DNA of 33,997 nt from an uncultured Lachnospiraceae bacterium. GTDB lineage: Bacteria; Bacillota; Clostridia; Lachnospirales; Lachnospiraceae. The position numbers were made by a program, and so were the translations under genes. Position 1 is the stretch's first letter; each line of letters starts with the position of its first letter. Location of the stretch: contig CAMNJZ010000016.1 in assembly GCA_946541955.1 (NCBI GenBank), positions 1 through 33,997 of the forward strand, read 5' to 3'. The notes under the pieces were generated by a model. The model saw only the letters and a program-made list of their open reading frames with translations, did not search any database and had not been told where the DNA came from. Of the stretch, positions 12,785 through 14,922 are shown piece after piece.

Positions 12785-13036
12785 GCCCGGAATCCGGTGC
12801 CACAGGAGAGGGGAAGGAAATATACGGACAAACCAGGCGCCTGGTATCTGCAGAGGCAGCAGGACCCATAAAATGCCCCTTTTTACGGGTAGAAGGGATC
12901 AGGGCCAGGTTGCAGGATGGCCCTGCAGGAAAAGGGGAAAACAGGGCCTGTATCCGGCCGGATCCCGCCAGGCCCAAGGGGCTGCCCTGATTTTCGTTTA
13001 CGAAAGAATGTGCAAAGCATCTCCGACAGCATGAAA

Positions 13037-13065
13037 TTGCAATATCCCCTGCCGCCCTTTATAAT
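13037..13065 (+). promoter_or_regulatory. Sigma-A promoter of the SGNH-WYL gene
   Basis: TTGCAA, a 17-bp spacer and a perfect TATAAT. The inferred start near 13072 leaves a leader of about 60 nt. The -10 is flanked by the inverted repeat listed next. Confidence 0.82.
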
Positions 13066-13079: not shown

Positions 13080-13132
13080 TGTATTTCCGCGCCCGCGCTG
13101 AAAATCAGTTATTCAGAGTAAGAGGTATTTCT

Positions 13133-14785
13133 ATGCGTATTCTTATGTTTGGAAACAGCTTTACCTACTATAACGACATGCCCTCTCTCCTGGCAGACCT
13201 TCTGGACGCCGAGGTCCGGGCGGTGACCCGGGGCGGCGGGAGGCTTTCCGAGTTCCGGGATCCGGACAGGGAGATCGGCCGGGAGGCGGAAGAGGCTCTT
13301 CGGTCCGGCAGCTGGGATTACGTGGTCCTGCAGGACCAGAGCAGCAGACCGGTCCGTTTTAAGGATTCCTTCCTGCGGGATGTAAACATGCTTTCCAGAA
13401 AGATCCGGTCCGTGGGGGCCGTCCCCCTGCTCTACTGTACCTGGCCCTACCGGCCGGGCGCGGCCCAGTATAAGAAGGCAGGCCTGGACTATGACGCCCT
13501 GGCCCGGGGCCTGCAGGATTCCTACCGGCAGGCTGCGGAGAAGGAGGGGATCCCTCTGGCCAACGTGGGGGCAAGGTTCATCGAAATCTGGCAGAGGGAC
13601 CAGGAGGCCGGAGACCTTTACGCTCCGGACGGGAGCCACCCCAGCCCCGCAGGCTCCAGGATCGCAGCAAGGATCCTGGCAGACGCCATCCTGCAGGATC
13701 AGGAAGCCAGAGCTGCCCAGGCAGCGGTCTATATGGAGGCGGAGGAGGAGGGAGAAGAGAGCGGAGAATACTTCGAGTATCCCAAGCCTACCCCGGTCCT
13801 GGTCAAGGACACGGATATCCGGATCCGGATTCTTTACATGTACCAGGTCCTGCGCAGGCATTCCGATCCGGAGCATCCCCTGACCACCAACCAGATCCGG
13901 GCCCTGATGGAAAAGGAGCACGGCATTTCCATGCACCGGACCACGGTCCCCGGAGACATTGAGGTCCTCAAGGCCGCCGGATTCAACATCGTGGGCAGGC
14001 GGGCCAGGCAGAACAAGTATTATCTGGCGGAGGGAGACTTTGAGCTTCCGGAACTCAAGGTCCTGATCGACGCGGTGGAATCCGCCAAGTTCATCACGGA
14101 AAAGAAGAGCATCGAGCTGACAAGGAAGCTGGCCGCCCTGACCAGTGAGCAGAACGCCGCCAAATTAAAGCGCCATCTCTGCACCACAGGCCGGGTCAGA
14201 TCCCTGAACGAGAAGTGCTGGTATATCATCGACGCCATCAATGAAGCCATCAACACAGGCAGAAGGATCTCCTTCCACTATACGGACATCGACGGCCGCA
14301 AGAGGGTGGTCCTGCGCAATCATGGCAATCCCTATATCATCAGTCCCTATACCCTGCTCTGGAACGGAGATTATTACTATCTCCTGGGCTATGACCACAA
14401 AAAGGAGGATATGCGGACCTACCGGGTGGACAGGATCCTGGAGCAGCCGGAGATCCTGCGGGACCAGGCGGATCCCGTGCCCGAGGACTTTGACCTGGAC
14501 CGCTATACAGCGGAGGTCTTCCGAATGTTCGACAATGATGAAATACGGGACGTGGAGCTTCTGTGCTCCTACGAGATCATGAAGGGCATCGTAGATCAGT
14601 TCGGCATGGACATTAAGGTCCGCCGGGCCGGCAAGGGGTGGTTTCGGCTGGGCGTCCGGGTCTGTACCTCAGTGACCTTCTACGCCTGGGTCTTCCAGTG
14701 GGCCGGCAGGGTGAAGATCCTGGGGCCGGAGGAAGCCAGGGAGGAATACAGACAGATGGCCATGAAGGCCCTGGAGGAATCCTGA
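13133..14785 (+). CDS. SGNH/GDSL hydrolase fused to HTH-WYL-WCX transcriptional regulator
   Basis: One uninterrupted 550-residue frame joins two proteins usually found apart. Residues 1 to about 195 form an SGNH hydrolase: the block I nucleophile Ser9 in MFGNSFTYYN, DYVVLQDQSSRP mid-domain, and Asp166-His169 in the block V motif PDGSHPSPAGSR. There is no signal peptide or membrane helix, so it is cytoplasmic. A Glu-rich linker (about 198-225) leads into a winged HTH (about 228-290, HPLTTNQIRALMEKEHGIS then TTVPGDIEVLKAAGFNI). A WYL domain (about 370-440, ISPYTLLWNGDYYYLLGYD, with YYL in place of WYL) and a WCX-type dimerisation domain (about 470-545) follow. The ATG has AAGAGG upstream; the frame stays open further 5' but that part is promoter. 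It probably links ester hydrolysis or ester-ligand sensing to gene control. Substrate and targets are unknown. Confidence 0.88.
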   Translation: MRILMFGNSFTYYNDMPSLLADLLDAEVRAVTRGGGRLSEFRDPDREIGREAEEALRSGSWDYVVLQDQSSRPVRFKDSFLRDVNMLSRKIRSVGAVPLLYCTWPYRPGAAQYKKAGLDYDALARGLQDSYRQAAEKEGIPLANVGARFIEIWQRDQEAGDLYAPDGSHPSPAGSRIAARILADAILQDQEARAAQAAVYMEAEEEGEESGEYFEYPKPTPVLVKDTDIRIRILYMYQVLRRHSDPEHPLTTNQIRALMEKEHGISMHRTTVPGDIEVLKAAGFNIVGRRARQNKYYLAEGDFELPELKVLIDAVESAKFITEKKSIELTRKLAALTSEQNAAKLKRHLCTTGRVRSLNEKCWYIIDAINEAINTGRRISFHYTDIDGRKRVVLRNHGNPYIISPYTLLWNGDYYYLLGYDHKKEDMRTYRVDRILEQPEILRDQADPVPEDFDLDRYTAEVFRMFDNDEIRDVELLCSYEIMKGIVDQFGMDIKVRRAGKGWFRLGVRVCTSVTFYAWVFQWAGRVKILGPEEAREEYRQMAMKALEES

Positions 14786-14849: not shown

Positions 14850-14922
14850 AGCTGGCACCGGGAATCGGACCCGGGACCTCCGCACTACCAATGCGACGCT
14901 CTACCGACTGAGCCATGCCAGC
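14850..14922 (-). tRNA. tRNA-Thr, anticodon GGT
   Basis: The 73-nt cloverleaf folds completely on the - strand: acceptor GCTGGCA/TGCCAGC, D stem GCTC/GAGC with loop AGTCGGTA, anticodon stem TCGCA/TGCGG around loop TTGGTAG (anticodon GGT, reading ACC and ACU), and T stem CCGGG/CCCGG. The discriminator base is T and CCA is not encoded, so it must be added after transcription. The T loop reads TCCGATT, so position 55 is C instead of the nearly universal T (pseudouridine). It has its own promoter and terminator. Confidence 0.93.

Follow-up and report, generated by a model that had tools for sequence, protein, structure and literature searches.

Within the window (the whole 33,997-nt stretch of DNA that was analyzed), the gene studied here occupies 13133-14785 on the forward strand and joins an N-terminal SGNH hydrolase domain to a regulator of putative winged helix-turn-helix (wHTH), WYL, and WCX domains (Table 1). 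As originally predicted, it is a single uninterrupted frame of 550 aa, and both its domain order and its catalytic set of Ser9, Asp166, and His169 are confirmed. WYL and WCX occur in order and over their Pfam cut-offs, Lipase_GDSL is barely over its own (2.8e-5), and the HTH scores below the cut-off; NCBIfam assigns no family to the protein. The fold of the SGNH half fits the SGNH/GDSL superfamily, and its match to the solved structure of Shel_16390 from Slackia (4s1p), a standalone SGNH protein listed only as a putative hydrolase and with no regulator attached, reaches E 2.8e-43. With a 195-residue SGNH domain ahead of its regulator, the protein falls outside class A WYL regulators, which are defined as HTH-WYL-WCX only.

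Table 1. Features of the fusion gene and its surroundings, in window coordinates
Feature	Position	Strand	Remarks
Candidate operator dyad TGCAA-N8-CGACA	13011..13028	+	Downstream half-site perfect, upstream 2/5
-35 hexamer TTGCAA	13037..13042	+	Exactly 8 nt past the dyad
-10 hexamer TATAAT	13060..13065	+	17 nt past the -35
Ribosome-binding site AAGAGG	13120..13125	+	Read directly in the sequence
SGNH-wHTH-WYL-WCX fusion gene	13133..14785	+	Uninterrupted, 550 aa
SGNH hydrolase domain, residues 1-195	13133..13717	+	Ser9, Asp166, His169
Variable disordered linker, residues 196-227	13718..13813	+	pLDDT <50 at residues 206-224
Predicted winged helix-turn-helix region, residues ~228-300	13814..14032	+	Secondary structure, Foldseek to DriD; Pfam HTH weak
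WYL domain, residues 366-437	14228..14443	+	PF13280, 2.6e-15
WCX domain, residues 473-547	14549..14773	+	PF25583, 4.4e-8
tRNA-Thr (GGT)	14850..14922	-	3' end faces the fusion stop codon, 64 bases off

The nucleophile Ser of block I and the Asp-x-x-His of block V of SGNH/GDSL enzymes are both there in fused proteins: Ser9 is found in 18/18 aligned fused rows, and Asp166 and His169 in 17/18, the exception being the fusion in L068, which has lost these two catalytic residues. On our assignment of the blocks, Gly35 (18/18 fused rows) would be the oxyanion Gly of block II; the expected Asn of block III was not found, and Gln67 is invariant in 111/111 rows. Rows labeled as standalone SGNH proteins retain Ser/Asp/His in 93/93 cases, a set that includes some duplicates as well as L201, in fact the fusion of G009. 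The SGNH domain of the fusion may well be a working intracellular acyl-hydrolase.

Genome scans, together with one-frame loci that include isolates, establish that the fusion is real, rare, and patchy. Among 61 genomes (37 of the genus and 24 of the order), G000, G009, and G020 carry the full fusion. A match across both halves occurs in 3/392 genomes of the order sample (G000, G409, and G092), and 138/392 show a match of any kind with E no worse than 1e-40, most of the listed rows being the WYL half alone. A scan of a species-genome collection covered the best 80 loci among the matches listed, so that more fusions may exist. Overall, the same two-domain order appeared in one frame in at least 16 distinct loci (aligned, duplicates removed), two of them from isolates by record title (Eubacterium callanderi FD and Fusibacillus kribbianus). 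The original prediction was to be given up if relatives always encoded separate genes and the join was an error; 16 of the 22 listed loci of the clade are instead one-frame and only L075 has separate genes, in the order WYL-FRG-SGNH with SGNH as the second gene downstream. One further fusion is cut by contig ends (L147, in G092) and four are frame-interrupted (L146, L073, L078, and L088), with a frame change breaking the SGNH half of L073. The one-frame loci, at least 16 of them distinct and two from isolates, rule out sequencing error or misassembly.

In genome G299 (L036:1380-2200, L146:8524-9126) the reading frame shifts between the halves, close to an A5GG run of the linker. A programmed frameshift at this run was considered and not adopted; the split is either natural or an assembly error.

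The fusion was not found on phages or plasmids: matches came from 15 phage and 18 plasmid records but never covered more than 80% of the query, and none of the 57 pattern-matching stretches on viral contigs encodes a relative. Fourteen of the 15 matching "Bacteriophage sp." records (human faeces; e.g., MT836599, MT836883, and MT835511) carry HTH-WYL relatives that are 23–48% identical, with SGNH absent from the matched region, and in the 15th record only the SGNH half is matched.

The 18 fused rows fall inside one clade of 20 (SH-aLRT 97) in a quick tree of 78 WYL rows, for which L078 and L088 were too fragmentary. The other two rows of this clade are the cut fusion L147 and the split L075, and SGNH sequence accompanies all 20. 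The fused SGNH halves do not form one clade and are mixed with standalone SGNH proteins; their tree (111 rows) forces a minimum of 3 changes and requires 8, one of them from the mislabeled duplicate L201, and these counts are inflated by the labeling of L147 and L201 as unfused in the trees though both are fusion-derived. The single WYL clade and the scattered SGNH halves suggest that the regulator became tied to SGNH once and that SGNH genes also seem to move, split off, or get exchanged.

Both halves are under purifying selection. Seven pairs were tested, and in the four that were unsaturated in both halves dN/dS for SGNH/WYL was 0.174/0.160 (window vs. L143), 0.064/0.083 (L070/L071), 0.069/0.028 (L074/L064), and 0.048/0.056 (L145/L071). 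The linker is looser where measurable (0.456, window vs. L143), and its length varies widely among fusions. The fusions of G000 and G020 both have tRNA-Thr and PBP1A in their vicinity, and the 3' end of tRNA-Thr is a possible attachment site for an island.

The protein had been proposed to act on its own promoter or elsewhere, and the sequence offers a candidate for each, an operator at 13011-13028 and one possible target in another part of the genome. The dyad was first noticed by reading the upstream regions of several fusion genes, and we scored the pattern TGTCG-N8-CGACA-N8-(-35)-N17-(-10) over 22 bases with a threshold of 17/22. An exact 10/10 dyad lies within 250 nt upstream of 4/20 fusion genes vs. 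0.002 expected from shuffles. Sites scoring 17–22 precede 6/20 fusion genes: the window copy (17, at 13011-13065, equaled by 0/300 shuffles), L143 (19), L144 (20), L069 (21), L074 (22), and L076 (21). The other 14 score 14 at most, and 24 control genes reach at most 16. Seven of these 14 follow another gene on the same strand at a distance of 2 to 83 bases, the rest being L063, L064, L066, L068, L078, L088, and L131.

Across the 22 fusion loci (608,452 nt, both strands) there are nine sites at 17/22 or better vs. none in 24 standalone-SGNH loci (980,274 nt), a count that is descriptive since the pattern was derived from the same fusion loci, while the control loci played no part in deriving it. 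Five of the nine share CGACACCA or TGACACCA, and eight precede or head fusion operons, as inferred from contiguity. Three of the nine, those in L065, L073, and L145, are not at the promoter of the fusion gene itself. The site in L065 heads an operon of acylphosphatase, YCII, HAD, Macro, AP_endonuc_2, AlkZ-related, unknown, and fusion genes; that in L073 heads a split type IV restriction enzyme, NUDIX, methyltransferase/HNH, and the fusion; and that in L074 heads the fusion, a methyltransferase, and a type IV restriction enzyme. A site in L145 (position 2199, reverse strand) stands directly in front of the gene for a Tn916-type integrase, at 5 kb from the fusion, and the fusion regulator may also control the mobility of its island there.

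The second candidate in the window's genome is an exact dyad with the same spacing (19/22, hand count) before a lipoprotein gene (read by eye) that adjoins GTPase and patatin-GTPase genes. In the same genome (L189:568-3063 and L180:116-1333), a patatin-like phospholipase is joined to a septin/RsgA-like GTPase domain with a second GTPase beside it, and one fusion-operator match follows these genes. Of the unfused WYL genes in the genus, the closest (L006:2589, reverse strand) has a dyad of its own, TGCGGAA-AA-TTCCGCA, followed after 10 bases by a TTGACA -35, a matching place that fits self-regulation in the wider group. The fusion's own promoter is a likely target, to which the protein would presumably bind at the operator and from which it would activate or repress.

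Several relatives have defense genes near the fusion on the same strand. These are a methyltransferase followed by NsnA-like, BrxL, and PglZ genes in L145; KwaB and KwaA in L146; DndD, DndE, and DndA/SspA-like genes in L071, where Kiwa-like genes are next to the fusion; type III restriction-modification in L072; and a type IV restriction enzyme in L073 and L074, the latter also with BrxL. L131 has a NERD/UvrD-type helicase on the opposite strand. No defense gene was recognized beside the window copy, and neither PADLOC nor Pfam matched the 1,062-aa protein that precedes the fusion of E. callanderi.

At 1e-20, PADLOC scans matched 72 families for 18 fusion loci (87 proteins) vs. 40 for 18 standalone-SGNH loci (108 proteins). 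The fusion set left out L064, L076, L078, and L147 of the 22, represented L144 by its duplicate L067, and comprised 87 of the 88 proteins listed, without the L075 SGNH protein, and the controls were a random draw of 18 from 24. PADLOC on alignments does not tell which member matches, and per-locus counts made by hand and partly by eye find defense genes near ~7/18 fusion loci and 3–4/18 standalone-SGNH loci, which is not a significant difference. The strong defense enrichment that was our first impression from neighbors and PADLOC is weakened by this control and is modest at most. Standalone SGNH genes, which lie beside type I or type IV restriction genes in L102 and L101 (partly by eye), may themselves be drawn to defense places.

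Other associations recur in these neighborhoods. AlkZ-related genes occur near SGNH genes, fused or not (L065:4266-4985 and L074:15019-15786 by Pfam, L110:9255-9983 by eye). A cassette of LexA-like (S24), ImmA/IrrE-like, and zinc-ribbon-like genes, read by eye, recurs near the fusion in L145, L070, L131, and partly L146; in L131 it also has a UmuC-like polymerase, and the S24 peptidase there is Pfam-checked. A different fusion, of a sugar-isomerase-like protein to an SGNH domain, occurs at L077:7235-10975, L079:5032-8708, and in L037, where its operon also holds a DHDPS-like gene and one for a short-chain dehydrogenase (named by eye). L077 and L079 also have a divergent WYL regulator of another clade, which brings SGNH and WYL together again in a metabolic setting.

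Among known systems, the regulator half is closest to DriD, a WYL activator of Caulobacter crescentus (8tp8) with what appears to be the same wHTH-WYL-WCX order and, unlike the fusion, no SGNH domain. DriD is its best sequence match (2e-4) and DriD chains are its best Foldseek match (1.3e-14, aligned over DriD's length); the superposition is poor (TM 0.20/0.29, rmsd 19.6, 20% identity). According to the published account, DriD recognizes the consensus ATACGAC-N7-GTCGTAT, has a site upstream of driD itself, and shares the GTCG/CGAC half-site with the fusion-locus operator (PMC12340889). The DriD arms described there are reversed (CGAC-N7-GTCG) and overlap a poor -35, whereas the fusion dyad ends 8 nt before a near-consensus -35. 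With the -35 outside the dyad and near consensus, the fusion's mode of action cannot simply be that of DriD.

The next Foldseek matches are to PafBC (6sj9 and 9fnd), the mycobacterial DNA-damage activator, which is reported to be activated by ssDNA (PMC11804915). PafBC is a heterodimer or a PafB-PafC fusion without a hydrolase, which uses a -26 motif and acts between sigma-A and the promoter. The BrxR/CapW regulators of BREX and CBASS (7qfz, 7t8k, and 7tb6) are also structural matches with wHTH-WYL order, but the BrxR chains are ~290 aa and lack a hydrolase, unlike the 550-aa fusion. BrxR homologs co-localize with varied defense systems and are mostly proteobacterial, with 6/347 in firmicutes (PMC9122601). 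The fusion falls outside the published family limit of E <1e-5, at 0.0021 for 7qfz and 0.26 for 7t8k (phmmer, on a database that differs from the published one).

Published WYL fusions, in the available text of Makarova 2014 (PMC4012209), join WYL to Cas3, exoRNase, Mrr, HNH, helicase, AbiGII NTase, BRCT, and TerB. Like the present fusion, these carry catalytic or other domains in defense settings; that list is mostly nucleases and nucleic-acid enzymes and does not contain SGNH/GDSL, and the present fusion also retains its predicted wHTH. The join was unfamiliar to the original prediction, and, annotation papers aside, no description of SGNH/GDSL joined to WYL was found in the literature searched, from which subscription journals largely fell outside; no paper was found for "WYL domain" together with "GDSL." The portion of Picton 2022 examined describes no fusion of this kind, and the paper uses none of the words GDSL, hydrolase, and fused; GDSL and SGNH are also absent from a 2026 BREX survey (PMC12839542). 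The PafBC paper, in the part seen, restricts its architectures to those represented by at least 100 sequences (PMC6789036). The fusion is a conserved variant of WYL regulators and has apparently gone undescribed.

Our main reading, to which we give a probability of about 0.5, is that the fusion is a DriD/PafBC-like autoregulating regulator of defense or repair with a built-in acyl-hydrolase that shares its signal pathway. It would act as a WYL transcription factor on its own gene and, in relatives, also on phage-defense and DNA-repair operons, binding TGTCG-N8-CGACA just upstream of the -35 in housekeeping promoters. The WYL-WCX part would sense a damage or infection signal, for which the analogy to DriD and PafBC makes ssDNA or a nucleotide fragment our best guess, and the SGNH domain would most likely hydrolyze an acylated ligand, thereby resetting or setting the switch; we infer both the identity of the ligand and the catalytic coupling. 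The intracellular enzyme–regulator switch first proposed for this gene stands in part: the fusion holds, its own promoter is a likely target, and control of defense or repair is likelier than a metabolic esterase role because the regulator half is closest to DriD and relatives lie beside or inside defense and repair operons. Telling against our main reading are the 14/20 fusion genes that score below 17/22 for the operator, defense neighbors that are not clearly more frequent than around standalone SGNH genes, the catalytic residues lost in L068 and the broken SGNH frame of L073, the mixing of fused with standalone SGNH halves in the tree, and the poor superposition on DriD. A more specific version, in which the SGNH domain makes or erases the very ligand sensed by its own WYL domain and the shared operator sets restriction, repair, and even integrase genes, is a tentative possibility.

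Part of this reading depends on the operator belonging to the fusion protein. Looser family-wide matches include sites of TGTCGAA form, which we take to be Spo0A boxes, and four of these precede genes read as spo0A (G183, G300, G092, and G409); G070 and G091 carry good sites in genomes where no fusion was found. TGTCG-N8-CGACA could on these grounds be the site of another regulator such as Spo0A, yet we consider this very unlikely: none of the nine fusion-locus sites has the TGTCGAA form, eight are at or before fusion operons, none of the 24 control loci has a site, the half-site matches the published one of DriD, and L006, the unfused sister WYL, carries another dyad at the corresponding position upstream of its own gene. 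When TGTCGAA sites are set aside, an exclusion made post hoc, sites with up to 2 mismatches occur in 3/4 known carriers vs. 2/393 other genomes, and a reversed control pattern was matched in 2 genomes each time. Fisher tests of co-occurrence between operator and fusion were discarded: in 2/3 carriers there was no site other than a spo0A-type one, and within the genus only 37 of the 61 genomes had been searched for the fusion.

The role of the enzyme half admits two other accounts. The SGNH domain could be an effector or a repair enzyme that is co-expressed with its regulator and happens to be attached to it, the fusion ensuring equal amounts with no coupling of signals, as might be expected from the many SGNH halves that occur alone, also next to restriction genes of type I or IV, from the separate genes of L075 with an FRG gene between them, and from the very variable linker. 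The presence of SGNH with all 20 rows of the WYL clade goes beyond what plain co-expression needs, yet the SGNH frame is broken in L073, and we hold this account to be rather improbable. Sensors often derive from enzymes, and the domain could alternatively have become mainly a ligand-binding sensor that holds its substrate or turns it over slowly to gate WYL, with turnover dispensable. Such a role would suit L068, where the fusion was retained after the loss of Asp166 and His169, but the full Ser/Asp/His set in 17/18 fused rows makes it distinctly unlikely.

If the SGNH domain does act on the ligand of its own regulator, this would point to an as yet unrecognized acylated signal that operates during phage infection or upon DNA damage. 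The ligands of defense WYL regulators are mostly unsettled, ssDNA being known for DriD and PafBC and present, by its title, in one CapW structure, and an enzyme built into the regulator provides a chemical clue (acyl esters) that is directly testable. With the operator, the regulon can be sought from sequence alone, and the gene is available in two isolates.
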